A DNA stretch of 64,000 bases. Origin: Jiangella sp. DSM 45060 (GTDB taxonomy: Bacteria; Actinomycetota; Actinomycetes; Jiangellales; Jiangellaceae). The first letter of the stretch is position 1. Every line of letters starts with the position of its first letter. The position numbers were made by a program, and so were the translations under genes. Positions 20,004 to 46,442 of this stretch are shown here, in pieces. Under the pieces are notes generated by a model that was not told the DNA's origin, did no database searches, and worked only from the letters and a program-made list of their open reading frames with translations. The stretch is from NCBI RefSeq assembly GCF_900105175.1, contig NZ_LT629771.1, positions 620,001 to 684,000 on the forward strand, given 5' to 3'.

Positions 20004-23000
20004 TCAGCCGGCCCGCAGGTCCTTCTGCGCCTGAGCGGCGGCGAGGAGGACGTTCTGGCGCTCGCGGCGGGTGAACCGGCCGGCCGCCTGCCACTCGGAC
20101 GCGACCTGCTCGACGCGGGCGACGAACGCGCCGTGGCCCTGGAACGGCGCGGCCGCCCACACCTTGTCGAGGAAGCTGTCGCCGTCGTCGTCGCGAGCCT
20201 CGTTCGAGACGCCGGAGTCGATGGAGCCGAACACCACCTTCGGCTCCACCCGCTTGTAGTACACGTGGTGCGCGTCGTTGATGCCGACGTACAGCGGGCG
20301 CAGCGTGTGCTCGTGCGTGGCGAAGAAGTTCGGCTCGTCCAGCGCCTCGACGGCCGCCGCGAGGTCGCCGTCGAGCTTGAGCGACGGGTAGAAGGTGAAC
20401 TGCCGCCAGTCCCGCGACCGGTTCAGCGCCGGCAGCACCAGCGGACCGTGGAAGAGGCTCTCGACCTCCGGGTCGTCCAGCGCGCGCTCGGTGCGCAGAT
20501 CGAACGGCATCGCGACGTCGATGCGGTCGCCCGGCGCCCACGTCCGGTCCAGCGTCAGGTACGTCCCCGGCTCGGCCGCGGCGTCGACGGCGGCGCCGTT
20601 GACCGTCACCGTGAAGCCGCGCCGGGCCCAGTACGGCACCCGCAGCTTGACGGCGAGCGGGCCGGCGCCGTCGACCGTGATCGAGGTGGACTCCTGCCGC
20701 GGGAAGTCCGTCACCTGCGTGACGGTGAACCCCTTCTCCGCCCAGTCCAGCGTCGAGGCGATGTACAGGTTCACGTACAGCGTCGAGCCGTCGGCGGACT
20801 GCGCGTAGATCGTCTCCTGGTACTTCGTGTGGTTCTCCATGCCGGTGCCGCCGCAGCAGGTGCCGTTGTTGCCGAAGCCGCGGGTGGCGCCCGGGTGGGC
20901 CGGCAGGAAGTACGTCACCTGCGGATCGCTGGCGCTGTCGTTGTCGCGACGCGAGCCGAGGATGTGGTTCGTCAGGCCGCGCTCGTAGTAGTCCATGTAC
21001 GCCGGGTCGGGGTTGTGGAAGTACAGGTTCCGGGTCAGCTTCAGCAGGTTGTACGACGAGCACGTCTCGCCACCGCCGCTGCTCGTCCCCGAGGTCGCGG
21101 CCTGGTAGTGCAGCGACTCGGAGATGTCGCCGCGCGGCTGGAACAGCTCCGGGTTGGTGTTCTCCGGCCGCCCCGGCGCCGCGCCGTACTGGCCGCCGGC
21201 CGAGCCGTGGCTGAACATCCGGTGCGGGATGATCATGTGCCAGAAGTTGTCCGCCGCGGTGAAGTACTCGGCGTTGGCCTCAGTGTCCTGCTCGTAGATG
21301 CGCAGGTAGCCGGTGAACTGCGGCACGTGCTGGTTGACGTGGATGCCGGTGAGCACGTCGCGGTCCTCGACGGCCGCCGGGAACACCGTCCGCCGGTTGT
21401 CGAACGCCTTCGCCGCGGCCAGGTGGTTGGCGCTGCGCTCCGGGTCGGTGTCGATGGCGGCCAGGTGGGCGAGGTTCTCGTTCGAGCCGCCGAACTCGCC
21501 GGCGATGTGCAGCGACCACATGCGGTTGAGGTTCTCGCGCGGCACCCGCGACAGGCGGCTGTGCACCCAGTCGCCCATCTTCGTGACGATCTCCAGCGCC
21601 CGCTCGCTGCCGGCCAGGTGGTACGCGTCGATGAGCCCGCGCATGATCTTGTGCAGTGTGTAGTACGGCGCCCAGATGCCGGTGCCGCTGTAGGTGGTGA
21701 ACTCCTCGAGCCTGATGAACTGCGCCTCGGTGTACGCCGACAGGAAGCCCGGGTGCCGCCGTCCGTCCGTCGCGCCGAGGAACTCGCCGTGGCGGCCATG
21801 TCCGGACGAGTCGGTGATCACCGGGCCGGGCGACTCGTCGAAGCGGTACCAGGCGACGTCGGCGCTCGCCGACGCCGGGTCGGCGGCGACGGCGGCCACC
21901 TCGGCGGCGTCGAGGCCGCGGCCGAAGATCTGGAACTCGTCCATGAGGCCGTTCAGGAACTTGATGTTGACCTGCGGGAACTGGGCACGCCCGAGCCAGT
22001 TGGCCGGTGTGCTGCCCAGGTCGGACGGCGACAGCGTCAGCTCGCCGCTGCCCGCCGCGACCCCGTTGACGTAGATGGTGCCGGTGCTGCCGGACTTGAC
22101 GATCGCGACGTGCGCCCACTGGCCGGCCGTCAGCGCCGTCGTCGCCTGGACGCGCTGCTCCGCCGCCGCGCCGCCGGTGGTGATGGCGAACCGCGGGCCG
22201 GTCTCGTTGTGCACCGTCAGGTACATCCGCGACAGCGAGTCCGACGCGGCGTCGCCCGGGTGGCCGAAGTCGAACACGCGCGCGTTGTCGTCGCGCACGG
22301 CCGGGTTCACCCACGCGGCGACGGTGAAGTCCGTCAGGCCGCTGACGATCCCCTCCGGCAGCCGGATGACGTCGGCGTCGCCGGTGATGTGGCCGTTCGG
22401 GGTGCCGGTGAACCGGATCGCCGTCCCGTGCCGCCCCTCGACCCTGGGCGTGGGCCGGGCGGCCTGCGCCGCGAGCGCGTCCTGGCACTCGCCCAGCGCC
22501 TCGACCATGTAGTCGAGCTTGTCCTTGAAGATCTGCTCACCCGTCGACGCCCACGACTGCGCCAGCAGCGTCAGGAAGTGCCCGCTGAAGTGGCCGCGCA
22601 GGTTGCCGTCGGGCGACTCCCAGCTGCCGATCGGGTTCACGCCCTTGTGGTCCAGCCCGGCCGTGACCCGGAAGCTGCGCAGCATGCGGTCCGGCCCCCG
22701 CTGGTCGTCGCGCACGCCGTTGACGACGCTCGGGCCGTACTCGCGGGCGTAGTGGAGCAGCCGGTTCCGCTTCTCCTTGAAGACGCTGTCGCCGAGGGTC
22801 ACCTGGCTCAGCGTGAACGGGCGCACCTGCCAGCTGTCCGCGATCGGGAGGTTCGGCTGACTGGCCGCCGCTCTGGCGGTGGCCGCCGCGGAGGCGCTGC
22901 CGGGCGCGGCGCCGGCGCTGCCGGCCGCCATGGTGCCGACGGCCGGTGCCGCGGCCGCCAGGGCCCCCAGGCGGAGGACGGTGCGCCGGGAGAGGTCCTT

Positions 23001-23006
23001 CTTCAT
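20004..23006 (-). CDS. GH127 beta-L-arabinofuranosidase with inserted LamG domain, exported
   Basis: Exported glycoside hydrolase of 1000 aa. The start at 23006 follows AAGGAG and gives a Tat-type signal (SRRTVLRLGALAAAAPAVG). The catalytic (alpha/alpha)6 domain of GH127/DUF1680 begins near residue 65, is interrupted at about 185-390 by a concanavalin-like LamG/laminin-G-type domain (FTVAAWVNPA, WAHVAIVKSGSTGTIYVNG, GLMDEFQIFGRGLDAAEV), and resumes at GFLSAYTEAQFIRLEEF. The zinc/catalytic residues of Bifidobacterium HypBA1 are conserved: Glu647-x-Cys649 in GGGETCS and Cys717-Cys718 in GTCCGGTGMENH. HypBA1 releases L-arabinose from beta-arabinofuranosyl-hydroxyproline of plant extensins. Neighbouring hydroxyproline genes and a LacI operator shared with a sugar importer support that substrate here. 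Confidence 0.93.
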   Translation of the reverse strand: MKKDLSRRTVLRLGALAAAAPAVGTMAAGSAGAAPGSASAAATARAAASQPNLPIADSWQVRPFTLSQVTLGDSVFKEKRNRLLHYAREYGPSVVNGVRDDQRGPDRMLRSFRVTAGLDHKGVNPIGSWESPDGNLRGHFSGHFLTLLAQSWASTGEQIFKDKLDYMVEALGECQDALAAQAARPTPRVEGRHGTAIRFTGTPNGHITGDADVIRLPEGIVSGLTDFTVAAWVNPAVRDDNARVFDFGHPGDAASDSLSRMYLTVHNETGPRFAITTGGAAAEQRVQATTALTAGQWAHVAIVKSGSTGTIYVNGVAAGSGELTLSPSDLGSTPANWLGRAQFPQVNIKFLNGLMDEFQIFGRGLDAAEVAAVAADPASASADVAWYRFDESPGPVITDSSGHGRHGEFLGATDGRRHPGFLSAYTEAQFIRLEEFTTYSGTGIWAPYYTLHKIMRGLIDAYHLAGSERALEIVTKMGDWVHSRLSRVPRENLNRMWSLHIAGEFGGSNENLAHLAAIDTDPERSANHLAAAKAFDNRRTVFPAAVEDRDVLTGIHVNQHVPQFTGYLRIYEQDTEANAEYFTAADNFWHMIIPHRMFSHGSAGGQYGAAPGRPENTNPELFQPRGDISESLHYQAATSGTSSGGGETCSSYNLLKLTRNLYFHNPDPAYMDYYERGLTNHILGSRRDNDSASDPQVTYFLPAHPGATRGFGNNGTCCGGTGMENHTKYQETIYAQSADGSTLYVNLYIASTLDWAEKGFTVTQVTDFPRQESTSITVDGAGPLAVKLRVPYWARRGFTVTVNGAAVDAAAEPGTYLTLDRTWAPGDRIDVAMPFDLRTERALDDPEVESLFHGPLVLPALNRSRDWRQFTFYPSLKLDGDLAAAVEALDEPNFFATHEHTLRPLYVGINDAHHVYYKRVEPKVVFGSIDSGVSNEARDDDGDSFLDKVWAAAPFQGHGAFVARVEQVASEWQAAGRFTRRERQNVLLAAAQAQKDLRAG

Positions 23007-23080
23007 GTGGTTCTCCTTGTCCGGGGAGATGCGGAGTCCGACGGGGTTCGGAGTCATGCCGTGCGTGCGTGGCGTCACGC

Positions 23081-23094
23081 TGTTAGCGGTAACA
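23081..23094. promoter_or_regulatory. LacI-family operator upstream of the GH127 gene
   Basis: TGTTAGCGGTAACA, extended by GC on each side to an 18-bp near-palindrome, 75 nt upstream of the GH127 start. It matches the sites at 3475 and 4640 in half-site sequence (TGTTAnC / GGTAACA or GGGAACA), implicating the LacI regulator at 3527-4549. Confidence 0.7.
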
Positions 23095-23106
23095 GCGAGG
23101 AAAGAT

Positions 23107-23140
23107 GTGACATGGTACTGACGGACGAAACGGGCGTCAA
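23107..23140 (-). promoter_or_regulatory. GH127 promoter with overlapping shared dyad
   Basis: On the minus strand, -35 TTGACG (23140-23135), a 17-nt spacer and -10 TACCAT (23117-23112). The 12-bp dyad GTGACATGGTAC occupies 23107-23118 and covers the -10. The LacI-type operator lies just downstream, so two regulators may act here. Confidence 0.65.
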
Positions 23141-23494: not shown

Positions 23495-23515
23495 CCCGCG
23501 GCCGCGAAGCAGGCG

Positions 23516-24190
23516 CTAGCCCTCGCGGCCCGCCCACTCGCGCCGGATGTGGCCGATGTGGGTGCGCATGAGCTCCTGCAACTGCTCCGCCTCACCGGCC
23601 TCGATGAGGTCGCACATCTGCAGGTGCTCGCGCGCGCTCGCCACCAGCCGCCCGGAGGAGGCGAGCGACGACAGGCCGTAGAGGCGGGTCTGGGCGCGCA
23701 GCTCCTGCACGATGCGGACGAGGCGCTGGTTGCCGCTGGCGGAGAGCAGCCGGACGTGGAACTCGACGTCGGCGCCGATGTAGCTGATGAGGTCGCCCGC
23801 GGCGGCGGCGTCGACGATGGCCGAGGCGAGGTTGCGCAGGTGCGCCAGCTCTTGCGCGGAGATCGCCGAGACGGCCTGGGCGGCGATGGGGGGCTCGAGC
23901 AGCTCGCGGATCTGGGTGATCTGGTCGAGGTCGGTCTCCGACATGTCGGTGACCTTGAACCCCTTGTTGCGCACGACCTCGACGAGGCCCTGCTTGACGA
24001 GGTCGAGCATCGCCTCGCGGACGGGGGTGGCGGAGATGCCGAAGCGCTCGGCGAGTCCGGGGGCGGAGTACAGCTCGCCGGGCTTCATCTCCCCGGACAC
24101 GATGGCGCCACGCAAGGCGTCGGCGACCTCTTCCCTGACACTCATCCGCCGTGCGAAGGACGGCAGAGCCAACTGCCGCAGTTCAGCCAT
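23516..24190 (-). CDS. GntR-family regulator with FCD domain, hydroxyproline cluster
   Basis: 224-aa transcription factor. The winged-helix domain covers about residues 15-80 (VREEVADALRGAIVSGEMKP, FGISATPVREAMLDLVKQG). The C-terminal FCD ligand domain has the metal-binding Asp/His pattern: DVEFHVRLLSASGNQRL, AREHLQMCDLIEAG and MRTHIGHIRREW. The start at 24190 follows GGAGGG; longer frames add unrelated residues. It is the last gene of the epimerase/deaminase transcription unit, 80 nt after the epimerase. FCD regulators of amino-acid and sugar-acid catabolism usually bind a pathway intermediate. It is one of two candidates for the protein that reads the shared dyad. Confidence 0.93.
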   Translation of the reverse strand: MAELRQLALPSFARRMSVREEVADALRGAIVSGEMKPGELYSAPGLAERFGISATPVREAMLDLVKQGLVEVVRNKGFKVTDMSETDLDQITQIRELLEPPIAAQAVSAISAQELAHLRNLASAIVDAAAAGDLISYIGADVEFHVRLLSASGNQRLVRIVQELRAQTRLYGLSSLASSGRLVASAREHLQMCDLIEAGEAEQLQELMRTHIGHIRREWAGREG

Positions 24191-24270: not shown

Positions 24271-25272
24271 CTAAAGGAGAAAGCCCTCGGGAAAGGGATC
24301 TGCCGGGTCGAGGAAGTATTGTGCCGTTCCAGTCAGCCAAGCGCGCCCGGTGACTGTAGGTATCACCGCGGGAAGGTTCCCGACGCTCGACTCGCCGACG
24401 AGACGGCCGACGAATCGGCTGCCGATCAAGGATTCGTTGACGAAGTCGGTGTCGAGCGGCAGTTCACCGCGGGTGAAGAGCTGGGCCATACGCGCCGACG
24501 TGCCGGTGCCGCAGGGTGAGCGGTCGAACCAGCCGGGGTGGATCGCCATGGCGTGCCGGGAGTGGCGGGCGTCCGAGCCGGGGTCGACCAGCTGGACGTG
24601 GTGGCAGACGTTGATCTCCGGGTTCTCCGGGTGCACGGGGGCGTCGGCGGCGTTGATGGCGTCCATGACGGCCAGCCCGGCGGCGAGCAGCTGGTCCTTC
24701 TGGGCGACGTCGACGCGCAGGCCGAGCTGGCCGGCGTCGAGGATGGCGTAGAAGTTGCCGCCGTAGGCGAGGTCGTAGGTGACCGCGCCCCAGCCGGGGA
24801 CGTCGACCTTCGCGTCGAGGCGGTCGGTGTAGGCCGGGACGTTGCGGATGGTGACGGCCTCGGCGGCGCCGTCGCGGACGGCGACCTCGCAGATCACGAG
24901 CCCGGCCGGGGTGTCCAGCCGGATCGTCGTGACGGGCTCGGTCACCTCGACCATGCCGGTCTCGACCAGCACGGTGGCGACACCGATGGTGCCGTGCCCG
25001 CACATCGGCAGGCACCCGGACACCTCGATGTAGACGACTCCCCAGTCGGCGTCGGGGCGGATGGGGGGCTGGAGGATCGCGCCGCTCATGGCGGAGTGCC
25101 CGCGCGGTTCGAACATCAGCAGCCGCCGCAGGTGGTCGGAGTGCGCGATGAACCACTGGCGCCGCTCCTCCATGGTGGCGCCCGGGAAGGTGCCGACGCC
25201 GCCCGTCACGACGCGCGTCGGCATTCCCTCGGTATGCGATTCCACGGTGTGGAAGATGCGCTTGGATCGCAT
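24271..25272 (-). CDS. 4-hydroxyproline 2-epimerase (proline racemase family)
   Basis: Converts trans-4-hydroxy-L-proline to cis-4-hydroxy-D-proline, the first catabolic step. 333 aa, normal for the family. Both catalytic cysteines are present: Cys91 in LPMCGHGTIG and Cys254 in DRSPCGTGTSA. This separates it from the Thr/Cys trans-3-hydroxyproline dehydratases. Other markers are RGHSAMSGAI and AYGGNFYAI. It lies 19 nt after the deaminase stop and upstream of the GntR gene, beside D-hydroxyproline dehydrogenase genes, which supports hydroxyproline rather than proline as substrate. Confidence 0.93.
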   Translation of the reverse strand: MRSKRIFHTVESHTEGMPTRVVTGGVGTFPGATMEERRQWFIAHSDHLRRLLMFEPRGHSAMSGAILQPPIRPDADWGVVYIEVSGCLPMCGHGTIGVATVLVETGMVEVTEPVTTIRLDTPAGLVICEVAVRDGAAEAVTIRNVPAYTDRLDAKVDVPGWGAVTYDLAYGGNFYAILDAGQLGLRVDVAQKDQLLAAGLAVMDAINAADAPVHPENPEINVCHHVQLVDPGSDARHSRHAMAIHPGWFDRSPCGTGTSARMAQLFTRGELPLDTDFVNESLIGSRFVGRLVGESSVGNLPAVIPTVTGRAWLTGTAQYFLDPADPFPEGFLL

Positions 25273-25291: not shown

Positions 25292-26185
25292 TCAGGAGTA
25301 CTTCTCGGCGGCCTTGGCTGTCAGCTCGCGCACGGTCGCCGCGTCCTCGGCCAGCATAGGCTGGCGCGGGGGCCGCACCGGACCGCCGTTGCGGCCGATG
25401 ACGTCCATCGACAGCTTGATCGCCTGGATGAACTCGGTGTTGAAGTCCCAGCGCAGCAGGGCGTGCAGGTCGCGGTACATCGGCAGCGCGGTGTCGAGGT
25501 CGTGCGCCAGCACCGCGTGGTAGATCTGGGCGCAGGCGCGCGGGAAGACGCTCGGGTAGCCCGAGATCCAGCCCTTGGCGCCGGCCAGGCCGACCTCGAC
25601 GATGGAGTCGTCGGTACCGATGAGGATGTCGAGGCCGGGTGCCAGTTCGGCGATCTGGTACGAACGACGCGACTCGCCCGTGAACTCCTTGACACCGACG
25701 ATGAGACCCTCGTTGTACAACTCGGCCAGGATCGCCGGCTTCAGGTCGATCTTGGTGTCGATGGGATTGTTGTACGCCGACACCGGAATGCCGACCTTCG
25801 CGATCTCGCGGAAATGATCGATGACCGAACGGTCGTCGCCACGGTAGGCATTCGGCGGCAGCGCCATGACCACCTGGGCGCCGGCCTCGGCGGCCTGCTC
25901 GGCCCAGCCCCGTGCCTCACGGGAGCCGTAGGCGCCGACGCCGGGCATCACCGTGAAGCCCTCGGGCGCGTTCTCGATGGCGACCTTCACCATGGTGGCC
26001 CGCTCTTCCGGGGTCAGCACCTGGTACTCGCCGAGCGAGCCGTTCGGGCACACACCGTCGATGCCGTTCTCGGCCAGCCAGCGGACGTGCTCGGCGTAGC
26101 GGTCGAAGTCGACCGAAAGGTCGTCACGGAAGAACGTGGGGGTGGCAACCAGAACGCCGTGCCAAGGCTTTTCACGACCGTTCAT
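25292..26185 (-). CDS. Dihydrodipicolinate synthase-family enzyme, probable Pyr4H2C deaminase
   Basis: 297-aa class I aldolase-fold protein of the DapA/NAL superfamily. The Schiff-base Lys166 is in GVKEFTG, Tyr138 in SAYNNP, and the substrate loop is NGSLGE (residues 48-53). In hydroxyproline pathways this family supplies Delta1-pyrroline-4-hydroxy-2-carboxylate deaminase (LhpC/HypD type), forming 2-oxoglutarate semialdehyde; context here makes that the likely role. The start at 26185 is chosen for GGAG upstream; an alternative Met lies 12 nt earlier. It heads a unit with the epimerase and GntR gene. An AT-rich element with a weak copy of the shared dyad is just upstream. Confidence 0.9.
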   Translation of the reverse strand: MNGREKPWHGVLVATPTFFRDDLSVDFDRYAEHVRWLAENGIDGVCPNGSLGEYQVLTPEERATMVKVAIENAPEGFTVMPGVGAYGSREARGWAEQAAEAGAQVVMALPPNAYRGDDRSVIDHFREIAKVGIPVSAYNNPIDTKIDLKPAILAELYNEGLIVGVKEFTGESRRSYQIAELAPGLDILIGTDDSIVEVGLAGAKGWISGYPSVFPRACAQIYHAVLAHDLDTALPMYRDLHALLRWDFNTEFIQAIKLSMDVIGRNGGPVRPPRQPMLAEDAATVRELTAKAAEKYS

Positions 26186-26201
26186 GTGAGGCTCCATTTC
26201 T

Positions 26202-26213
26202 ATACTATATAAC
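26202..26213. promoter_or_regulatory. AT-rich promoter region with weak shared dyad, deaminase operon
   Basis: The 77-bp gap between two minus-strand genes is strikingly AT-rich around TATACTATATAAC. GTTATATAGTAT on the minus strand agrees with the GTGATATGGTAC form of the dyad in 9 of 12 positions. It is probably the promoter for deaminase, epimerase and gntR. Confidence 0.4.
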
Positions 26214-26262
26214 ATTTCACTCATGTGTGGAGAACGGGACGAACGGGACTGAGCGCGAATTT

Positions 26263-27693
26263 CTAGGTCTGCAGAATGCCGTCCACTCGCCGCGGAATGC
26301 CCGGACCGGCCTCGCGGAGCTCCTCGGGCAGCACGTGCTCGGGCGCGTTCTGGTACGAGATCGGACGCAGCCACCGGCGGATCGACGTGGGGCCGACGGA
26401 GGTGTGCGTGCTGAGGCTGGCCGACGGGTACGGCCCGCCGTGCTGCATGGCCCACGTGACGGCGACGCCGGTCGGGAAGCCGCCGAACAGCAGCCGGCCG
26501 GCCCGTTGCCGCAGTGCGGTGTGCAGCTGGCCGACCAGCGCGGTCTCGCCGTCGCCGGCGTGGATGGTCGCGGTCAGCTGGCCCTCGAGGCGGTCCAGCG
26601 CGGCCAGCAGCTCGTCGGTGTCGCGGTACTCGATGACCAGCGCGGTCGGGCCGAAGCACTCCTCGAGCAGCTCGGCGTCGAGGTCGGCGGCGGCGACGGA
26701 GAACAGCGCCGGACGGCCGAGCGCGGGGTCGTCGCCCTGGCCGTCGCCGAGCGTGCGCAGCCGGTCGTCGGCGCGCCGCCGCTCGGTCTCGGCCCGGTAG
26801 GCGTCGCGGATGGAGTCGTTGAGCATGCGCCCGGCCGGCACCTCGGCCAGCTTCGCGCCCAGCGCGGCCCGCAGTTCGTCGGCGCCCGCGGGCGCGAACA
26901 GCAGCCCTGGCTTGGTGCAGAACTGGCCGACGCCCATGGTGATCGAGCCGACGTACCCGGCGGCGAACTCCTGTGCCTGGCCTTGTGCCACCTCGGGCGT
27001 GACGACCAGCGGGTTCAGGCTGCCGAGCTCGCCGTAGAACGGGATCGGCTGCGGCCGCGCGGCGGCGAGGTCGGCCAGCGCCCGGCCGCCCCGGGTGGAA
27101 CCGGTGAAGCCGACGGCGCGGACGTCGGGGTGCTGGACCAGAGCGGTGCCGGCCTCCAGGCCCTCGACCAGGCCGAGCGTGCCCTCGGGCAGTTTGGCCT
27201 CGGCCAGCCCGGCCCGCATGGCGGCGAAGGTGCGCCGGCTGGTCTCGGGGTGCGACGGGTGTGCCTTGACGACGACGGGGCAGCCGGCCGCGAGCGCGGA
27301 CGCGGTGTCGCCGCCGGGCACGCTGAACGCGAGCGGGAAGTTGGACGCGCCGAAGACGCCCACGACGCCGACCGGCACGAGCATGCGCCGCAGGTCGGGC
27401 TTCGGGCCCATCGGGGTGTCGCCGGCGTGGTCGATGGTGGCCTCGACGTACGAGCCCTCGCGCAGCACCTCGCCGAACAGCCGCAGCTGGTACGTGGTGC
27501 GGGTGAGCTCGCCGTTCAGGCGGGTGGCGCCCAATCCGGTCTCGGTGTCGGCGGTGGAGACGATGGCGTCGCGGTCGTCCTCGAGCGCGGCGGCGACGGC
27601 GTCGAGAGCGTCGGCCCGGCGGACGCGGCCGGCCTGCTCGAACGGCGCTGCGGCCTCGGCCGCGGCGCCGACGGCGTGATCGACGTCAGACAT
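26263..27693 (-). CDS. Aldehyde dehydrogenase, probable 2-oxoglutarate semialdehyde dehydrogenase
   Basis: Oxidises the semialdehyde to 2-oxoglutarate with NAD(P)+, the last step of hydroxyproline breakdown. 476 aa with the ALDH residues Asn118 (GASNFP), Lys143 (VVVKAHPSHP), Glu222 (FYGELGSLNP) and nucleophile Cys259 (GVGQFCTKPG). The KAHPSHP and QFCTKPGL patterns match the KGSADH subgroup seen in hydroxyproline and pentose pathways. It sits between the dehydrogenase subunits and the deaminase. A perfect palindrome (27789-27809) lies 96 nt upstream. The family is certain; the substrate comes from context. Confidence 0.92.
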   Translation of the reverse strand: MSDVDHAVGAAAEAAAPFEQAGRVRRADALDAVAAALEDDRDAIVSTADTETGLGATRLNGELTRTTYQLRLFGEVLREGSYVEATIDHAGDTPMGPKPDLRRMLVPVGVVGVFGASNFPLAFSVPGGDTASALAAGCPVVVKAHPSHPETSRRTFAAMRAGLAEAKLPEGTLGLVEGLEAGTALVQHPDVRAVGFTGSTRGGRALADLAAARPQPIPFYGELGSLNPLVVTPEVAQGQAQEFAAGYVGSITMGVGQFCTKPGLLFAPAGADELRAALGAKLAEVPAGRMLNDSIRDAYRAETERRRADDRLRTLGDGQGDDPALGRPALFSVAAADLDAELLEECFGPTALVIEYRDTDELLAALDRLEGQLTATIHAGDGETALVGQLHTALRQRAGRLLFGGFPTGVAVTWAMQHGGPYPSASLSTHTSVGPTSIRRWLRPISYQNAPEHVLPEELREAGPGIPRRVDGILQT

Positions 27694-29497: not shown

Positions 29498-29533
29498 CGG
29501 CGCCTCCTCGGCTCTGCGGTGAGGATGCGGGGA

Positions 29534-39613: not shown

Positions 39614-39643
39614 GTGACGAGGAAATGTGCAATGTCGTATTTT
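39614..39643 (+). promoter_or_regulatory. Probable promoter of protease copy B with a degenerate dyad
   Basis: GTGACG (39614-39619) and TATTTT (39638-39643) are spaced 18 nt. GTGCAATGTCGT (39627-39638) resembles the shared dyad in its left half only. AT-rich compared with surroundings. Confidence 0.4.
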
Positions 39644-39676: not shown

Positions 39677-41794
39677 ATGCGTATGAGGCTCAGCAGGACG
39701 AGCGTCGCGAGGCGGTGGCGGCTGGGACTCGCCGCGGCCGCGGTCACGACGCTCGTCGTCGGTGTGGCGAGCGCGGGCCAGGCGGCTCCGCCGGACTTCG
39801 AGGTCCAGCCGATCGATCCGCAGAACTGGCAGAACCAGTACGACATGACCTGGGACGACTGGACGGACATCCCGGGCACCCAGTGGAACGACCCGGACGC
39901 GAAGCCGAGTGAGCGCGGCCTGCGCATCGCGCTGGTGGCGGTGGACTTCCCGGACCAGCCGTTCGTCATGACGCAGGAGAAGCAGAGCGACCTGTTCGGC
40001 AACCCGCAGATCGACCCGATCTCGCGGGACGAGGTGCCGCAGTTCTACCACGACTTCTACATGGTCCCGAACGAGTACAACCACGGCCGCACCATCCAGG
40101 AGTACTGGATGGAGCAGAGCCGCGGGAAGCTCGGCGTCGAGGAGATGGACGTCTTCGGCGCGTACCAGGTGCCGCGCAACCTGTTCGAGTACGGCCTGAA
40201 CGAGTGGGGCCAGCAGTCCGCCTGTCCCGAGGGCTTCACCTGCAACGGGAACCTCGACCGCGACGTCGACACGGTCTGGAAGGCCGACCTCGCCGAGAAG
40301 GGCGTCCCGTGCCCGGACAGCCGCTGCGGCTACGACGTCATCCTGCGGGTCTACGCCGGCTACGACGAGACCAGCATCTGGCAGGAGTACGGCGAGATGA
40401 TGTTCGACACCAAGGAGGACATCCCCGATGAGTGGGGCCCGCCGGCGTCGGTCGACCCCGACAACGAGATGCCGAACTGGGCGCCGACCCGATACGTCGA
40501 GTGGACCTCGTGGCGGGCCGCGGCCCAGCAGTGGGGGCTCTCGTCCATCCGCCAGGCGGAGAGCTCGGGCACCATCACGCACGAGATGGGGCACTTCTTC
40601 TTCCGCATCGGCGACAACAACAACAACCCGTTCTCGGACCGCGCCAACCCGCCGCAGCCGTTCCACCGGGTCGGCTCGGCGCCGTGGGACATGATGGACC
40701 GCGGCTCGTTCAACGGCCCCGGCGGTCACCACATGCGCTGGGTCGTGCCGCCGAACATGGGTGGCTGGTCGCCGTCGGGCCTCATGGTCCGCAACAAGAT
40801 CCACGCGGGCATCCTGCCGGCGGAGAACCTGCTCGACATCAGCCGTGAGGCGCTGGCCGACTCCGGCGTCGTCGTCGGCGAGGTGACGGCGCGCGCCGTC
40901 GACCCGGGCGCCGAGGGCACGTCCGGCGTGAAGATCCGGCTCGACGGTGAGGGCCGTCCGGACCGCACCCCGGCCTGTGACATCAACACCGACCCGTTCT
41001 GCCACGGCAACACCGGCTGGGACCACTACACGCTGGAGGTCGTCGACCGGATGGGGTTCGACTCGTTCAACCCCGACAGCGGCGTGATCATCTCCAAGAA
41101 CAAGACCAACGAGGACCGCAACAGCACCTGCGGCTACGGCTGCTTCAACTGGGTCATCGACGCCAACCCCGACGACATCGGGCTGGTCGACTTCTACAAG
41201 CCCGACGGCACGCCCGTCATGGCGTCGATCGCCGACCACCGCCAGCTCAACGACGCCGCGTTCCACGCCGGGCTGAACTCCGGCTCGGAGTACGAGTACG
41301 TCGACGAGGCCAACCGGCTGCACTTCTACGTCATCGACCTCGAGCGGGACGAGGACGGCGTGCTGTCGTACACGCTGGCCGTGCGGTCGCTGGACGGCGA
41401 CGGCTCGCAGGAGCGTGGCGTGGAGCTGGGCGACGGCGAGGTGTCCGGGATCCGGGCCAGCCAGGCCGCCCAGTGCACGTTCCCGCTGACCAACACCGGC
41501 GAGGAGGCCACGAACACGGCCGGCCACGTCAGCGACGTCAGCGGCAAGGCCGACAACGACGTGTACCGCCTCTCGGTGGAGTCCAGCGGCAAGGGCTGGA
41601 CGGCCGAGCTCGACAACGCCCTCACCACGGCCCGCGCCGGTGAGACCGTCGAGGTCCCGGTCTACGTCACCCGCGAGACGCCGGCCGCGCGCAACACCAC
41701 GGTCACCCTCACGGCGACCTCGGAGAGCGACCCGTCGGCCACGCAGCAGATCAGCTGCACCGTGGCCGTGAAGGACACCAACCCCCGGCGGTGA
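39677..41794 (+). CDS. Secreted M6-family metalloprotease, copy B
   Basis: 705-aa exported metalloprotease. The ATG at 39677 follows GAGGAGAGC; signal peptide with LGLAAAAVTTLVVGVASAGQ and cleavage near QAAPP. It is a close paralogue of copy C throughout and a more distant one of copy A. The zinc motif is HEMGHFFFRIGD (His302, Glu303, His306). The segment after the second His is one residue longer and lacks the Gly of the usual HExxHxxGLxD pattern. It has several paired cysteines (CPEGFTCNGN, CPDSRCGYD, CGYGCFN). The C-terminus is a beta-sandwich-like domain ending KDTNPRR. It probably digests extracellular protein. Confidence 0.9.
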   Translation: MRMRLSRTSVARRWRLGLAAAAVTTLVVGVASAGQAAPPDFEVQPIDPQNWQNQYDMTWDDWTDIPGTQWNDPDAKPSERGLRIALVAVDFPDQPFVMTQEKQSDLFGNPQIDPISRDEVPQFYHDFYMVPNEYNHGRTIQEYWMEQSRGKLGVEEMDVFGAYQVPRNLFEYGLNEWGQQSACPEGFTCNGNLDRDVDTVWKADLAEKGVPCPDSRCGYDVILRVYAGYDETSIWQEYGEMMFDTKEDIPDEWGPPASVDPDNEMPNWAPTRYVEWTSWRAAAQQWGLSSIRQAESSGTITHEMGHFFFRIGDNNNNPFSDRANPPQPFHRVGSAPWDMMDRGSFNGPGGHHMRWVVPPNMGGWSPSGLMVRNKIHAGILPAENLLDISREALADSGVVVGEVTARAVDPGAEGTSGVKIRLDGEGRPDRTPACDINTDPFCHGNTGWDHYTLEVVDRMGFDSFNPDSGVIISKNKTNEDRNSTCGYGCFNWVIDANPDDIGLVDFYKPDGTPVMASIADHRQLNDAAFHAGLNSGSEYEYVDEANRLHFYVIDLERDEDGVLSYTLAVRSLDGDGSQERGVELGDGEVSGIRASQAAQCTFPLTNTGEEATNTAGHVSDVSGKADNDVYRLSVESSGKGWTAELDNALTTARAGETVEVPVYVTRETPAARNTTVTLTATSESDPSATQQISCTVAVKDTNPRR

Positions 41795-41818: not shown

Positions 41819-41859
41819 GGCCGGCCCGGGCCCGTCCACGTGACGGGCCCGGGCCGGCC
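41819..41859 (+). terminator. Perfect 18-bp hairpin between protease copies B and C
   Basis: A perfect 18-bp G+C stem (41819-41836 with 41842-41859) and 5-nt loop, 24 nt after the stop of copy B and 16 nt before the start of copy C, whose ribosome binding site lies right after it. It may be a terminator, a partial terminator or an mRNA-processing/stability element, since no room for a promoter of copy C is left downstream. Confidence 0.7.
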
Positions 41860-41875
41860 GCGAAGGAGAACGCTC

Positions 41876-44005
41876 ATGAGACTCATGCACCGACCCCGCC
41901 GAACGCTTCGCGCCGCAGGTCTCACGTTCACCGCCGCAGCCCTCGTGCTCGGGATGTCCGCAGCGGCCGTCCAGGCCGATCCGCCGGACTTCGCCGTCGA
42001 GCCGATCGACCCGCAGAACTGGATCAACCAGTACGACATGACCTGGGACGACTGGACCGACATCCCGGGCACCGAGTGGAACGACCCCGACGTCAAGCCG
42101 AGCGAGCGCGGCCTGCGCATCGCCCTCGTCGCGGTCGACTTCAAGGACATCCCGTTCGTCATCACGCAGCCGAAGGGGTCGGACCCGTTCGGCAACCCGC
42201 AGATCGACCCGATCGAGCGCGAGGACGTCCCGGACTTCTACCGCGACTACTACATGGAGCCGAACGAGTACAACCACGGCCGCACCATCCACGAGTACTG
42301 GATGGAGCAGAGCCGCGGCCGCCTCGGCGTGAACGAGATGGACACGTTCGGCCCGTACACGCTCCCGCGCAACCAGTTCGAGTACGGCCTCAACGAGAGC
42401 TGGATCCGCAACGCCCCGGGCGAGCACTGTCCCGAGGGCTACACCTGCAACGGCAACGTCGAGGGCGACACCGACACCCTCTGGCGGGCCGACCTCGCCG
42501 AGCAGGGCACGCCCTGCGTGGGCAGCCGGTGCGGCTACGACGTCGTGCTGCGCGTCTACGCCGGCTACGACCAGACCTCGGTCTGGCAGGAGTTCGGCGA
42601 GATGATGTTCGACTCCAAGGAGGACGTCCCCGACGAGTGGGGTCCGCCGGAGTGGCTCGACCCCGACGACTCGATGCCCAACTGGGCGCCGACGCGCTAC
42701 GTCGAGTGGACCTCGTGGCTGGCGTCGTCGCAGCGCTGGGGCAGCGCCTCGATCCGTCAGGCGGAGAGCTCGGGCACCATCACGCACGAGATGGGGCACT
42801 TCTTCTTCAGCATCGGCGACAACAACAACAATCCGTTCTCGGACCGGCAGAGCCCGCCGTCACCGTTCCACCGCGTGGGATCCGCGCCCTGGGACATGAT
42901 GGACCGCGGCTCGTTCAACGGCCCCGGTGGCCACCACATGCGCTGGGTGGTGCCGCCGAACATGGGCGGGTGGTCGCCGGCCGGCCTGATGGTGCGCAAC
43001 AAGATGCTGGCCGGCATCGCCGACAACCTGGTGGAGCTCAGCCGCGAGAACCTGGCGAACACCGGCGTCTACGTCGACCGGGTCACGGCGCGCGCCGTCG
43101 ACGCGGGCGAGGACGGCACATCCGGCGTCCGCGTCAGGCTGGACGGTGAGGGCATCCCGGACCGCACGCCCGACTGCGACGCCGACACCGACCCGTTCTG
43201 CCACACCGAGCGGCTGGCCAACGGCACGACGGGCTGGGACGACTACACCGTCGAGGTCGTCGACCGGATGGGCTTCGACTCGTTCACGCCGGACAGCGGT
43301 GTGATGATCGCGAAGAACAAGCCGCGCGGCTCGAACACCTGCGGCTACAGCTGCTTCAACTGGACCATCGACGCCAACCCCGAGGACATCGGGCTGGTCG
43401 ACTTCTACCGGCCCGACGGCACTCCCGTCATGGCGTCGATCGCCGACCACCGCCAGCTCAACGACGCCCTCTTCCACGCCGGCACCAACTCCGGCTCGGA
43501 GTACGAGTACGTCGACGAGCACAACCGGCTGCACTTCTACGTCATCGACATGCAGCGCGACGACGACGGCGTGCTGTCGTACGATCTCGCGGTGCGGTCG
43601 CTCGACGGCGACGGCACGCAGGACCGCGGGGTGGAGCTCGGCGAGGGCGACGTCGAGGGCCTGCGGACCAGCCAGGCGGCTCAGTGCACGTTCCCGCTGA
43701 CGAACACCGGCTCGGCCGCGACGACCACCGCGGGCCACCCGACCGACGTCGCGTCGAAGCTGGACAACGACGTGTACCGGCTGTCGGTGGCGTCCAGCGG
43801 CCAGGGCTGGACGGCGCAGCTGGACAACGCGCTCGCCACCGCGCGGGCCGGCGACACCGTCGAGGTGCCGGTGTACGTCACCCGTGAGACGCCGGCGGCG
43901 CGCGAGACCACGGTCACGCTCACCGCGACCTCGGAGAGCGACCCGGCCGCCAGCACGTCCGTCACCTGTACGGTTGCGGTCAAGGACACCAACCCGCGCC
44001 GTTGA
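41876..44005 (+). CDS. Secreted M6-family metalloprotease, copy C
   Basis: 709-aa exported metalloprotease. The ATG at 41876 is preferred over an upstream GTG because GAAGGAG lies 7 nt before it. Signal peptide ends near AAAVQADPP. It is highly similar to copy B along its whole length, indicating tandem duplication. The zinc motif HEMGHFFFSIGD (His304, Glu305, His308) has the same altered spacing as copy B. Differences from B include a longer cysteine loop (NESWIRNAPGEHCPEGYTCN) and an insert near DADTDPFCHTERLANGTTG. It ends KDTNPRR like copy B. Two lipoprotein genes follow. Confidence 0.9.
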   Translation: MRLMHRPRRTLRAAGLTFTAAALVLGMSAAAVQADPPDFAVEPIDPQNWINQYDMTWDDWTDIPGTEWNDPDVKPSERGLRIALVAVDFKDIPFVITQPKGSDPFGNPQIDPIEREDVPDFYRDYYMEPNEYNHGRTIHEYWMEQSRGRLGVNEMDTFGPYTLPRNQFEYGLNESWIRNAPGEHCPEGYTCNGNVEGDTDTLWRADLAEQGTPCVGSRCGYDVVLRVYAGYDQTSVWQEFGEMMFDSKEDVPDEWGPPEWLDPDDSMPNWAPTRYVEWTSWLASSQRWGSASIRQAESSGTITHEMGHFFFSIGDNNNNPFSDRQSPPSPFHRVGSAPWDMMDRGSFNGPGGHHMRWVVPPNMGGWSPAGLMVRNKMLAGIADNLVELSRENLANTGVYVDRVTARAVDAGEDGTSGVRVRLDGEGIPDRTPDCDADTDPFCHTERLANGTTGWDDYTVEVVDRMGFDSFTPDSGVMIAKNKPRGSNTCGYSCFNWTIDANPEDIGLVDFYRPDGTPVMASIADHRQLNDALFHAGTNSGSEYEYVDEHNRLHFYVIDMQRDDDGVLSYDLAVRSLDGDGTQDRGVELGEGDVEGLRTSQAAQCTFPLTNTGSAATTTAGHPTDVASKLDNDVYRLSVASSGQGWTAQLDNALATARAGDTVEVPVYVTRETPAARETTVTLTATSESDPAASTSVTCTVAVKDTNPRR

Positions 44006-44014
44006 TCTCGAGTG

Positions 44015-44058
44015 GGCACCCGGGCGGCGGCGCGTGCCGCGCTGCCGCCCGGCGTGCC
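44015..44058 (+). terminator. Imperfect hairpin after protease copy C
   Basis: About 19 bp of mostly G-C pairing with one bulge and one mismatch, between the stop of copy C and the first lipoprotein start. It may allow partial read-through. Confidence 0.45.
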
Positions 44059-44072
44059 GGGGAAGGAAACCC

Positions 44073-44534
44073 GTGCAACGTTTGCGTGGCCGTGCGGCGC
44101 TGGCCGTCGCCGCGGTGATCCCGGTGCTGCTGGCCGGGTGCTCCGGTTCGTCCGACGACACGGAGGCGTCCGGTTCCGGCTCCGAGGCCGGTGTCGTGCG
44201 GGTGCTCATCCCCGACGGCAACCTGCGCCGGCTCGGCGAGCCGTGCAACGGGGCGGGCGCGTTCCGCTCCGTCCACGCCGAGGCGAGCTTCACCGTCCAG
44301 GACGGCGACGGCGTCGAGGTGGCGCGCGGCGAGCTTCCGGGCGGCACCGCGGAGCAGCTGATGGACGTCAGCTTCCGCGAGGGCATGCGGCAGCCGACGA
44401 TGTGCGTCATGACCGTCGACGTCGAGGGGCTGACCTCGCCGGACGGCCTCGAGTTCGTCGTCGGCGACGGCTTCGCCGTGCCCATCGAGCCGAGCGACGA
44501 CGCGGAACTGATCGGAGAGGTGTTGATCTCGTGA
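44073..44534 (+). CDS. Lipoprotein of unknown function
   Basis: 153-aa lipoprotein with GTG start behind GGAAGGAAA. The signal sequence ends in the lipobox LAGC (Cys23), then an acidic Ser/Gly linker. The mature part holds two cysteines (EPCNGAGAF and PTMCVMTVDV) and a small beta-rich domain. I recognise no family. Its stop overlaps the start of a thioredoxin-like lipoprotein gene, so the two act together. Their position after three cysteine-containing secreted proteases hints at a role in exported-protein folding. Confidence 0.75.
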   Translation: MQRLRGRAALAVAAVIPVLLAGCSGSSDDTEASGSGSEAGVVRVLIPDGNLRRLGEPCNGAGAFRSVHAEASFTVQDGDGVEVARGELPGGTAEQLMDVSFREGMRQPTMCVMTVDVEGLTSPDGLEFVVGDGFAVPIEPSDDAELIGEVLIS

Positions 44535-45082
44535 GGCGGGTTCTGACCGGTGTGGTCGTGGCGGTGCTGGCGCTGGCCGGGTGCTCGGGGTCGGACGACC
44601 CCGCCGCGGTCTCGTTCGAGCTGCCCGGCGACGTGCCGGCCGACGTGACGTTCATCGACGCTCCGGCGACCGCGCCGCCGGCGCCGTCGTTCGAGCTGGA
44701 GCTGCTCGACGGCAGCACCCTCGACCTCGCGGAGCAGTGGGAGCAGCGGCCGGTCGTGCTGGTGTTCTTCGAGTCGTTCTGCGAGCTGTGCGCGCAGCAG
44801 CAGGCCGACATCACCGCGCTGAGCGAGGAGTACCGCGACTCCGTCCTTTTCGTCGGCGTCGGCAGCGCGACCAGCGAGGACGACGCCGCCGAGTACCTGC
44901 GCGAGCACGACATCGCCTACCCGGTCGGTCTCGATCCCGACGGCGAGGTGTTCCGGCGCTACGGCGTCGACGAGCCGCCGCTGGTGGCGTTGATCGCGCG
45001 CGGCGGGCAGCTGGTGCGCGGCTGGCCGGGCGGCGTGGACGATCTCGGCAGCCAGCTGACGGAGTTCGTCGTCGCCGGATGA
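44531..45082 (+). CDS. Thioredoxin-like (TlpA/redoxin) lipoprotein
   Basis: 183-aa membrane-anchored thiol oxidoreductase. GTG start overlaps the previous stop (GTGA). Lipobox LAGC with Cys18. The thioredoxin-fold domain follows, with the redox pair Cys84/Cys87 in FFESFCELCAQQ, the strand VLFVGVG, and PPLVALIARGGQLVRGWPG with a Pro at about the cis-Pro position. This fits extracytoplasmic TlpA/ResA-type proteins. CxxC is CELC rather than CPHC or CGPC. Likely partner of the preceding lipoprotein. Confidence 0.85.
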   Translation: MRRVLTGVVVAVLALAGCSGSDDPAAVSFELPGDVPADVTFIDAPATAPPAPSFELELLDGSTLDLAEQWEQRPVVLVFFESFCELCAQQQADITALSEEYRDSVLFVGVGSATSEDDAAEYLREHDIAYPVGLDPDGEVFRRYGVDEPPLVALIARGGQLVRGWPGGVDDLGSQLTEFVVAG

Positions 45083-45111
45083 CGGATTCGTCCGGTTCAT
45101 TCCGGTAGCAT

Positions 45112-45123
45112 GTGATATGGTAC
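45112..45123. promoter_or_regulatory. Shared dyad upstream of the PucR-type gene
   Basis: GTGATATGGTAC within ATGTGATATGGTACTG (45110-45125). Nearly identical to the GH127 copy (GTGACATGGTAC), but in opposite orientation relative to its gene, 17 nt before the start codon. Confidence 0.6.
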
Positions 45124-45140
45124 TGCGGGCGGAGGTGACC

Positions 45141-46442
45141 ATGGAACTCTCGATGCAGCAGATCCTGGAGAGCCTGGCGCAGCGGGTGGCGCGGCCTGCC
45201 GTGCTCGAAGACCGGTACATGCGGCTGCTCGCGTTCAGCTCGCACGAGCGGCCGATCGACGACGTGCGGGAAGACTCCATCCTGCGCCGGCACGCCTCGT
45301 CCGAGGTGCGCGGCTGGCTGAAGCGGTTCGGCCTGCCGAACCTGCGCCGGCCGCTGCGGCTGCCGGCCAACCCCGAGCTGCACATGCTGCCGCGGGTCTG
45401 CGTCCCCGTCGTCTACCGCGGCAAGCTGCTCGGCCACCTCTGGTTCGTGGACGCCGACGGCAGCATGAGCGACGCCGACCTCGACGCCTGCGTGCAGGGC
45501 GCGGCCGAGCTGGGCGAGTGGCTGCACCGCGAGAGCGTGGCCAGCCTGTTCTCGTCGGCCCGGCTGGCCGACACCATGCACATGCTGCTGAGCAGCTCGC
45601 CGATGAGCGCCCAGGCCGCCCGCAGCCTCATCGACGCCGGCTACATGCCCGAGCGCGACGGCGTCGTCGCCGTGGTGCTGCAGGGCGTGCCGCGCCGTTC
45701 GTCCGCCGTCGACATCGAGGACGCCCTCGCCCAGGCCGTCGCCGACTTCCGCCGCGTGGTCCGGCGCGGCCAGGCGCTGGACCTGATCAGCCGCGACCAC
45801 GCCGTGCTGCTGCTGTCCTGCGCCGGCGACCACGACATCTACGTCGACGAACGGGTCGAGGGGCTGGTCGAGCTGACCCGGTCCGCGCTGGGCGGCGCCG
45901 GGTCCGACGCCGCCCTCGTCGTCGGCGTCGGCAGCCGCCGCGACGCGCTCGAGCACGCCTACGCGTCCTTCCGCGAGGCCCGCATGTCCGCCGACGCCGC
46001 CCGCCTGCTCCCCGGCCTCGGCGACGTCGTGCACTGGTCCCGGCTCGGCATCCACCAGATCGTCGTCAAGCTGGCGTCGCTCGGCGAGGAGGTGCCGACC
46101 GTCCATCCCGGCCTCGGCCACCTGCTCGACGACCCCGACGCGCTGCCGCTGCTGGAGACCCTCGAGACCTACCTCGACGTCGCCGGCAACGCCCAGCTCA
46201 CCGCCGAACGCCTCAACCTGCACCGGACGTCGCTGTACTACCGGCTGCAGCGGCTGGAGCAGCTCGCCCACACCAACCTCAAGAGCGGAGCCGAGCGGCT
46301 GGCCCTGCACCTGTCGCTCAAGGTGGCCCGCATGACCGGCCAGTACGCGCCCCGCCAGGCCGGCCCGGCCGACGCCGCCGTCCCCGCCGACGCCACCGGC
46401 ACCGACAACGTCACGCCCTTCCCTGCGGTCGCCTCCCGCTGA
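45141..46442 (+). CDS. PucR/CdaR-type transcriptional regulator
   Basis: 433-aa regulator. The start at 45141 follows GGAGG. The N-terminal third looks like a GAF-type sensor (LEDRYMRLLAFSSHE, VCVPVVYRGKLLGHLWFVD). The middle is a GGDEF-like domain of the CdaR type (VVGVGSRRDALEHAYASFRE). The C-terminal PucR HTH is ETLETYLDVAGNAQLTAERL with NLHRTSLYYRLQRLEQL. Such proteins often sense amino acids, purines or other nitrogen sources. A shared dyad lies within 30 nt of its start, suggesting autoregulation or membership of the same regulon as the protease and hydroxyproline genes. Confidence 0.9.
   Translation: MELSMQQILESLAQRVARPAVLEDRYMRLLAFSSHERPIDDVREDSILRRHASSEVRGWLKRFGLPNLRRPLRLPANPELHMLPRVCVPVVYRGKLLGHLWFVDADGSMSDADLDACVQGAAELGEWLHRESVASLFSSARLADTMHMLLSSSPMSAQAARSLIDAGYMPERDGVVAVVLQGVPRRSSAVDIEDALAQAVADFRRVVRRGQALDLISRDHAVLLLSCAGDHDIYVDERVEGLVELTRSALGGAGSDAALVVGVGSRRDALEHAYASFREARMSADAARLLPGLGDVVHWSRLGIHQIVVKLASLGEEVPTVHPGLGHLLDDPDALPLLETLETYLDVAGNAQLTAERLNLHRTSLYYRLQRLEQLAHTNLKSGAERLALHLSLKVARMTGQYAPRQAGPADAAVPADATGTDNVTPFPAVASR

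Follow-up and report, generated by a model that had tools for sequence, protein, structure and literature searches.

A stretch of 64,000 nucleotides from Jiangella sp. DSM 45060, a member of a genus of soil bacteria, is referred to below as the window. It contains, between positions 20004 and 46442, genes for a glycosidase, secreted proteases, a peptide importer and hydroxyproline catabolism. This immediately raises the question of whether they serve the use of one substrate. The original prediction was that an extensin-type glycoprotein is stripped of arabinose and digested, its peptides imported and its hydroxyproline oxidised to 2-oxoglutarate. A Pfam scan of 30 ORFs (14122-54716) found the listed genes present, and the parts do seem to belong together, but the labelling of the glycosidase as a HypBA1-type GH127 enzyme had to be given up and the conservation of its neighbourhood is limited. 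The locus is probably a HypR-type regulon gathered at one place for a hydroxyproline-rich glycoprotein, most likely plant-derived.

Gene content and the family of the glycosidase

Read along the reverse strand, the Pfam matches are SBP_bac_5, two BPD_transp permeases and two ABC ATPases with oligo_HPY, then DAO, Fer2_4, Pyr_redox_2 with Fer2_BFD, aldehyde dehydrogenase, DHDPS, proline racemase, GntR-FCD and a PF07944 glycosidase. The forward strand bears three metalloprotease-like genes, an AhpC/TSA redoxin-like protein (44012..45082) and a PucR-family regulator (45117..46442). Raw reading frames are overlong for several genes, likely starts being 23006 for the glycosidase, 24190 for the GntR regulator, 26185 for the DHDPS protein, 31982 for the second ATPase, 36629 for the solute-binding protein and, by eye, about 37398 for the first protease.

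As predicted, a peptide importer heads the catabolic genes on the reverse strand. It comprises, by Pfam, a family 5 solute-binding lipoprotein closest by similarity to the dipeptide-binding DppA (34944..36629), Opp/Dpp permeases B (33932..34936) and C (33000..33930, start approximate) and ATPases 1 (31979..32995) and 2 (30837..31982). Genes for the three subunits of the expected D-hydroxyproline dehydrogenase follow consecutively, again by Pfam: beta-type (DAO, 29693..30847), gamma-type (2Fe-2S Fer2_4, 29228..29548) and alpha-type (Pyr_redox_2 and Fer2_BFD, 27847..29247), the last placed in the gene order as SCO6291 is in the available text of PMC6608401. Pfam and NCBIfam matches then define an aldehyde dehydrogenase (ALDH), likely an alpha-ketoglutarate semialdehyde dehydrogenase (26263..27693), a DHDPS-family 1-pyrroline-4-hydroxy-2-carboxylate deaminase (25292..26185) and a proline racemase family protein (24271..25272), in which both anticipated cysteines are visible by eye (LPMCGHGTIG and DRSPCGTGTS). 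Its best NCBIfam match is PRK13971 at 358.5 bits (cut-off 376), with proline racemase at 344.6, and its assignment as 4-hydroxyproline epimerase was decided by context. The proposed flow from protein to 2-oxoglutarate is consistent with this gene set.

The three M6 metalloproteases claimed earlier lie on the forward strand and are classed as secreted. M6a (37398..39482) scores above the cut-off of PF05547, and M6c (41840..44005), which carries HEMGH, has an InhA2-like fold; M6b (39677..41794) is 77% identical to M6c. Neither M6b nor M6c matched any Pfam family, the cut-off there being passed by M6a and M6d only, and M6c scores 80.8 bits against TIGR03296, whose cut-off is 110.8. The M6 fold of M6c was found by a second structure aligner; no M6 match appeared among the Foldseek matches listed, and a search of PDB sequences with the M6 profile gave zero matches. 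Membership of peptidase family M6 is assigned on HExxH together with a profile or fold match. Beyond the range first described, the reverse strand encodes a fourth secreted M6 protease, M6d (47134..49494, above its Pfam cut-off), and, as a neighbour of the system, a secreted S8 subtilase (49627..51741, by Pfam).

The glycosidase (20004..23006, reverse strand) has a Tat-like signal, RRTVLRLG, recognised by eye, and a LamG_3 domain inserted into its catalytic barrel. The Glu-x-Cys (ETC) and Cys-Cys residues noted earlier are both there, as the catalytic E647-x-C649 and C717-C718 (numbering from the 23006 start), and are unvarying across 48 sequences compared. According to the accessible part of PMC10850190 they are common to GH127 and GH146, and are therefore not diagnostic of the HypBA1 type. 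Sequence and fold in fact place the enzyme in the sister family GH146: phmmer gives 234 bits to GH146 BT0349 versus 34 bits to HypBA1 (3wkw), profile comparison 404 versus 60 bits, and Foldseek e-values of around 1e-30 versus 1e-17. By all three methods the HypBA1-type GH127 identity is rejected, and the protein is predicted to be a GH146-type beta-L-arabinofuranosidase. The substrate idea nevertheless survives, since the characterised GH146 members XeHypBA1 and Bll4HypBA1 are described as cleaving Araf-beta-Hyp in the excerpts available of PMC10850190 and PMC6085000. Specificity for extensin, on the other hand, is something that we infer: arabinogalactan proteins would fit equally, and collagen is a possible substrate of the proteases.

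A HypR candidate and its putative operators

The GntR/FCD regulator (23516..24190, reverse strand; Pfam and alignment) adjoins the hydroxyproline genes and, by eye, has HypR-like metal ligands, the combination by which we recognise a HypR regulon. It contains the segment SATPVREAMLDL, the DNA-reading part of HypR, in common with Streptomyces, and its HTH part is 66% identical to that of the GntR protein that two Streptomyces encode next to their copy of this operon.

Candidate operators were judged by likeness to the HypR consensus CTNTGC(A/C)ATGTCAC at the target promoters. Such likeness is found before the ALDH, GH146 and M6a genes, is looser before M6b and weak before the importer and deaminase genes. 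The ALDH palindrome GTGACATTTCACATGTCAC (27790..27808, reverse) is present in 11/11 Jiangella examined. Before GH146, site scans give the putative operator CAGTACCATGTCAC (23107..23120, reverse), about 110 bases ahead of the start and overlapping a promoter, TTGACG-17-TACCAT, picked out by eye; its core is exact in seven of nine Jiangella orthologues and reads TACCATGCCAC in the remaining two. The putative M6a operator GTGACAGTACAATATTAC (37259..37276, forward), also from site scans, is matched at one mismatch in all ten Jiangella having M6a, and in two relatives the site reads GTGACAGTACAATGTCAC, the exact S. coelicolor HypR core. That core, TACAATGTCAC in the available text of PMC6608401, lies in its exact form ahead of M6a in two species and of M6b in a third. 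Operator-like blocks of lower likeness are GTGCAATGTCGTATTTT before M6b (39627..39643, forward), also seen in Kibdelosporangium, a conserved GTGAAATGTTATATAGTATA before the deaminase gene (26200..26220, reverse) and, nearly invariant in 11 Jiangella, the importer promoter block with its CAGTAGTGCAATAGCAC core (36787..36827, reverse). A site scan also gave an operator-like near-palindrome, GTAGCATGTGATATGGTAC, at the PucR start (45105..45123, forward).

How far do these sites stand out? When both strands of the window were scanned with the consensus, the ALDH and GH146 promoters came top at 11/13 each, the M6b promoter being one of 12 places scoring 10/13. The same 11/13 is attained upstream of GH146 relatives at six of 66 scored loci (four Glycomyces, one Streptomyces and one Ruminiclostridium); that score alone is therefore weak and was dropped as sole proof. 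At two mismatches the window has 33 matches, fewer than the shuffle mean of 51. A search of 12 whole Jiangella genomes gave ten copies of the 11-mer TACMATGTCAC, spread over eight of the genomes and all at this locus, seven ahead of GH146 and three ahead of M6a or M6b. In 84 Mb an order-1 model of the window expects about seven copies, and 4.8 of the reversed 11-mer, of which none was seen. By composition, then, the 11-mer is no rarity, and the argument rests on its position. Invariant promoter runs reach 31 bases for ALDH and 22 for M6a, compared with 13 for M6d, 12 for S8, 11 for the redoxin and 9 for the DAO gene; those of M6b (9) and GH146 (4, in a row that wrongly included a paralogue from one genome, G011) do not exceed these controls. 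Before the GntR gene no site at one mismatch was found in Jiangella, and one was found in Kibdelosporangium. A genome-wide regulon built on the palindrome GTGACA-N5-8-TGTCAC was rejected, as six of its seven genome sites lie, by eye, beside seemingly unrelated genes.

A second conserved palindrome, CGCTGTTACCGCTAACAGCG (23077..23098, reverse), lies in the GH146 promoter, with GTTANCGNTAAC kept in 9/9 Jiangella orthologues. We take its look to be LacI-type, resembling the site of a sugar repressor, and because of it control of GH146 may be double, by a HypR-type and a sugar repressor. Given its presence in all nine orthologues, sugar may even be the main signal at this promoter.

Conservation in relatives and the likely substrate

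The expectation that the neighbourhood would be conserved holds for subsets of the gene set, but linkage of the glycosidase is patchy. GH146 is at the locus in 9/12 Jiangella; of the others, one has a decayed remnant, one, on a short contig, has none and G011 has nearby only a 51% identical paralogue lacking the operator. No linkage was seen in the seven other genomes of the family that carry the epimerase, nor are GH146 and epimerase together in any of 11 genomes of the same class outside the family that have both genes. In Kibdelosporangium, however, a GntR-GH146 pair faces an M6 gene (75%, 72% and 78% identity, respectively), with GntR and M6 flanking an operator-like site, and in Saccharothrix a 72% identical GH146 abuts the hydroxyproline genes. 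The GH146 promoters of these two have no one-mismatch site (best scores 10/13 and 8/13), and the Kibdelosporangium hydroxyproline operon has no operator reaching 11/13. Among the matches listed (at most 120 each), at least five contigs, equated by identical length, pair a close GH146 with a close M6, while the remoter matches listed coincide on none. In Streptomyces the hydroxyproline operon lies about 5 kb from GH146 at two of 41 loci, but this was discounted as support: the GH146 proteins are only 51-53% identical and one is beside a GH5 cellulase. No hydroxyproline operon is found in the flanking DNA, short for some, of the remaining 39.

These observations can be drawn together in a model. 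The exported GH146 enzyme would take beta-L-arabinofuranose off hydroxyproline or arabinose chains, leaving a bared protein for the secreted M6 proteases to cut, and the Dpp/Opp importer would bring in short peptides. The liberated trans-4-hydroxy-L-proline would pass in turn through the epimerase, the three-subunit dehydrogenase and the deaminase, and a last oxidation would yield 2-oxoglutarate. The GntR protein encoded between the epimerase and GH146 genes would be a HypR repressor, bound to operators overlapping the ALDH, GH146 and M6 promoters and departing when hydroxyproline or its product is present; a sugar repressor would also have to leave the second palindrome before GH146 is made. 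We advance more tentatively the broader idea that HypR, an amino-acid repressor, directs every stage in the breakdown of plant hydroxyproline-rich glycoprotein, through a protein-specialised GH146 clade, M6 proteases, X-Pro trimming (in relatives), import and oxidation, with the GH146 promoter reading both halves of the glycoprotein.

A plant glycoprotein is a more likely substrate than collagen, although collagen or gelatin from animal remains deserves consideration. M6 proteases would then replace an M9 collagenase, and GH146, though controlled by that repressor too, would be an additional gene with a different role. HypR of S. coelicolor controls a putative M9 collagenase (PMC6608401) and predicted Alteromonadales HypR regulons include collagenases, as far as the available texts go. 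X-Pro dipeptidyl-peptidase genes, which adjoin the M6 gene at five relatives' loci, would suit collagen too. To our knowledge collagen hydroxyproline is without beta-L-arabinofuranose, so that both the GH146 operator in seven of nine orthologues and the pairing of GH146 with GntR and M6 in Kibdelosporangium would be left unexplained, and we regard this explanation as unlikely.

Somewhat less probable again is that GH146 is controlled by a sugar repressor and has pectic arabinan or the polysaccharide arabinogalactan as its substrate; it would then be a mere neighbour whose carbon use is separate from that of hydroxyproline. The palindrome resembling a sugar repressor's site fits this, as do GH146 paralogues elsewhere in the genome, the lack of linkage to hydroxyproline genes in other Actinomycetes, the likeness of the LamG insert to domain 4 of the arabinanase AbnA (at rank 26, among other lectin-like domains) and the activity on arabinan fragments attributed to the closest solved relative, BT0349, in the accessible part of PMC10850190. 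Yet the HypR-type operator is on the same promoter, and in other families GH146 genes of the same clade are linked to those for M6, GntR or hydroxyproline use. It is very improbable that importer and proteases reflect general nitrogen scavenging in a chance neighbourhood. Peptide importers and M6 genes are indeed common in soil actinobacteria, and in one genome from a different genus the importer within the hydroxyproline cluster is of the sugar type instead, but the operators are conserved and M6, PucR and GntR remain with the hydroxyproline genes in 3/5 genomes of a second genus.

Comparison with known systems

Extensins and arabinogalactan proteins form a large hydroxyproline store of plant walls. 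Bacterial systems described so far, judging from the texts available, strip the sugars of such glycoproteins, with no route described there for the protein. The Jiangella locus provides a candidate enzyme for every step, along with one regulator and its putative operators, and the whole route is therefore testable in a culturable actinobacterium. If the proposal is true, a glycosidase would be under an amino-acid repressor, perhaps with a sugar repressor too. No literature joining all these parts was found in open-licence PMC.

BT0349 (PDB 5opj, 6yqh) is the best match of the GH146 enzyme in sequence and fold, with catalytic Cys and Glu-x-Cys kept, but the window enzyme differs in the LamG domain inserted in its barrel and in its apparent protein-use locus. 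In Bifidobacterium longum and Xanthomonas euvesicatoria, Bll4HypBA1 and XeHypBA1 act on Araf-beta-Hyp of hydroxyproline-rich glycoproteins with a beta-arabinobiosidase, HypBA2, and an alpha-arabinofuranosidase, HypAA, as partners (PMC10850190, PMC6085000); unlike the Jiangella locus, the available text mentions no hydroxyproline catabolism. GH121 and GH43_22 partner genes were absent from the 30 ORFs scanned. An in silico claim for Latescibacteria (PMC4454575) shares the idea of a beta-L-arabinofuranosidase of this superfamily as a marker of extensin use, its accessible part lacking a hydroxyproline pathway or regulon evidence.

The regulons predicted for HypR in Proteobacteria take in upstream functions as well, namely collagenases, proline dipeptidases and a di/tripeptide permease but, in the excerpts available (PMC5343134), arabinofuranosidase is unmentioned. 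The S. coelicolor regulon (SCO6289-SCO6294, SCO5912, SCO5281; PMC6608401, available in part) has the same order of DAO, Fer2, Pyr_redox, DHDPS and epimerase genes, and likewise an adjoining GntR/FCD repressor, the operator core and a secreted protease. It differs in having an M9 collagenase where Jiangella has M6 proteases. In Jiangella the predicted sites would in addition cover GH146 and the semialdehyde dehydrogenase, and the operon includes the importer. HypR regulons with a collagenase are thus already known, and the Jiangella locus would be a variant of them.

Gene content and the family of the putative arabinofuranosidase

The source genome is a single contig of 7.49 Mb, of which the window covers positions 620001-684000. 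A scan of open reading frames and domains found all the genes named in the original prediction, with probable start codons of the cluster genes lying downstream of the raw-frame starts. Directly outside the predicted range lie a fourth M6 gene (M6d, 47134-49494) and an S8 subtilase gene (49627-51741), both on the minus strand. The top NCBIfam match of the epimerase is 4-hydroxyproline epimerase, with a score slightly below the family cut-off.

The glycosidase (20004..23006, minus strand) has its likely start at 23006 and opens with a twin-arginine-like signal; its PF07944 catalytic domain is split into two stretches by an inserted LamG_3 domain. Initially labelled a HypBA1-type GH127 enzyme, it is instead a member of GH146, since sequence, profile and structure scores all favour that family. 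Among solved structures the best sequence match is 5opj (BT0349) at 234 bits, with 131 and 129 bits for 8k7y/8k7x and 34 bits for HypBA1 (3wkw); a profile built from 48 relatives gives 404, 277 and 60 bits, respectively. In structural comparison the AlphaFold model (mean pLDDT 84) reaches E values of about 1e-30 and 1e-26 with GH146 structures, and about 1e-17 with GH127. On each of these comparisons the HypBA1-type identity is rejected. The Glu-x-Cys and Cys-Cys residues are invariant in the 48 sequences, and the nearest relatives among named genomes are from Jiangella species. GH146 specificities described in the literature (PMC10850190, PMC6085000) include arabinan for BT0349, beta-1,3 for Bll3HypBA1 and Araf-beta-Hyp for Bll4HypBA1 and XeHypBA1.

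Operator-like sites across the locus

In Streptomyces coelicolor, according to PMC6608401, the HypR site is TACAATGTCAC and the consensus is CTNTGC(A/C)ATGTCAC; in the promoter of hypR itself the site covers the -10 region. With at most one mismatch, TGNMATGTCAC has only three matches in the whole window, at the promoters of the GH146, aldehyde dehydrogenase (ALDH) and M6a genes; allowing two mismatches raises the number to 33, which is below the mean of 51 for shuffled sequence. When both strands of the window are ranked against the published consensus, the ALDH and GH146 promoters take the top two places, and twelve further places score 10/13; these include the M6b promoter, the PucR start and places within coding DNA. 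The grouping of parts originally proposed is correct and now supported by common operator-like sites.

The ALDH site is present in 11/11 relatives and the M6a site, at the one-mismatch level, in 10/10. The exact GH146 site is found in seven of nine, the remaining two having TACCATGCCAC, and is conserved amid upstream DNA with almost no alignment. In Jiangella alignments the longest invariant promoter runs are 31 bases for ALDH, 22 for M6a and 31 for the importer, compared with control runs upstream of M6d (13), S8 (12), redoxin (11) and DAO (9). Those of M6b (9) and GH146 (4) do not exceed the controls, the GH146 row having wrongly included a paralogue; a 17-base block upstream of M6b recurs in Kibdelosporangium. 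TACMATGTCAC occurs ten times in 12 whole genomes, every time at this locus. Since about seven occurrences would be expected anywhere in 84 Mb, the weight of this evidence lies in position and, the genomes being related, the occurrences represent few independent events.

Over its DNA-binding part the window GntR protein shares 66% identity with the GntR proteins that two Streptomyces have beside the same operon, and its SATPVREAMLDL segment is unchanged; we infer that it binds the HypR-type sites. An operator-like near-palindrome, GTAGCATGTGATATGGTAC, lies where the PucR gene starts (45105-45123) and reads GTAACATGTGATATGTTAC in some relatives; its middle is kept in 10 of 11 aligned Jiangella, with a near form in G016, a genome of another genus. 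PucR may be part of the regulon. On the minus strand, the regions upstream of 49494 (M6d) and 51741 (S8) have conserved GGTGACC and ACAGATG elements in common, both unlike the HypR-type site.

A second palindrome, CGCTGTTACCGCTAACAGCG (23077-23098), stands after the HypR-type operator and ahead of the GH146 start. Its core GTTANCGNTAAC is shared by 9/9 Jiangella orthologues, and TGTTANCGNTAACA occurs exactly once in the window and is absent from 100 shuffles even with one mismatch allowed; the palindrome was not found in the DNA examined around this genome's GH146 paralogues. We take it to resemble a LacI-type sugar-repressor site. The palindrome may mean that sugar controls GH146 alongside hydroxyproline, or outweighs it.

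Conservation of the neighbourhood

Conservation of the neighbourhood falls below the original expectation. The epimerase is present in 19 of 22 family genomes, and a GH146 orthologue (at least 86% identity) adjoins it in 9/12 Jiangella, one of these (G007) being cut by a contig end. G006 retains a decayed GH146 remnant, in fragments, between GntR and TetR (L164:9272-9800); G008 has no GH146 at the locus, on a short contig; and in G011 the strand opposite the epimerase carries, about 2 kb away, a 51% paralogue (L178:1602) with no HypR-type operator. GH146 lies beside the epimerase in none of the seven other family genomes having the latter. M6 genes are found in 11/12 Jiangella, and three of five genomes of another genus (G016, G019, G020) have one M6 gene separated from the epimerase by some 13-14 kb that include PucR and GntR. 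From these counts, linkage of M6 to the hydroxyproline genes is wider than that of GH146. In G016 a SBP_bac_1 sugar-type ABC importer separates the epimerase and GntR genes (L181:2422-6799).

In 393 class genomes, with only the two best glycosidase candidates per genome scored, 12 outside the family have a GH146 relative (E 1e-80 or better) and 86 an epimerase relative (E 1e-60 or better); in none of the 11 with both are they together, four pairs being on separate contigs. Other families were compared through 71 loci of named genomes. In Kibdelosporangium banguiense, GntR (75%) and GH146 (72%) are consecutive and divergent from M6 (78%), with no hydroxyproline genes within the 23 kb examined; the hydroxyproline operon, 8.4 Mb from this unit, is without a close GntR or an 11/13 site. 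In Saccharothrix deserti, GH146 (72%) and the hydroxyproline genes are convergent and an 11/13 site lies upstream of the deaminase gene, but there is no close GntR (best 31%). A protein search placed 33 members in the GH146 clade at 69% identity or more among the matches listed, the next being at 52%. Five of the contigs that carry them are identical in length to contigs of the close M6 clade, and no further pair agrees among the 120 matches listed for each protein; equal length is indirect evidence that the two genes share a contig. Another GntR of Kibdelosporangium (48%) adjoins a remote racemase (35%), and an 11/13 site lies upstream; this set (G393:C1:7870301-7872003, locus L201) may be a sister system serving a different imino acid.

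Substrate and comparison with known systems

An S15 X-Pro dipeptidyl-peptidase (Pfam) adjoins M6 in Kibdelosporangium (L091:4228-6093) and G016, as do relatives of 71-76% identity in G019, G020 and G021; four Jiangellaceae loci of other genera (L181, L182, L183, L188) have this arrangement. Neither the window nor the Jiangella loci examined yielded a homologue. The adjacency fits a proline-rich protein substrate. A plant glycoprotein is the favoured substrate, since it is in plants that hydroxyproline carries beta-L-arabinofuranose.

SCO6289-SCO6294 of S. coelicolor show the same arrangement of DAO, Fer2, Pyr_redox, DHDPS, epimerase and GntR genes, and in that species a strain lacking the epimerase gene no longer grows on hydroxyproline (PMC6608401). 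Compared with that system, Jiangella has in addition the aldehyde dehydrogenase and a Dpp-like importer. A HypR regulon extending to a protease is already known; what is new here is a predicted arabinofuranosidase gene preceded by this type of operator, together with the M6 set.
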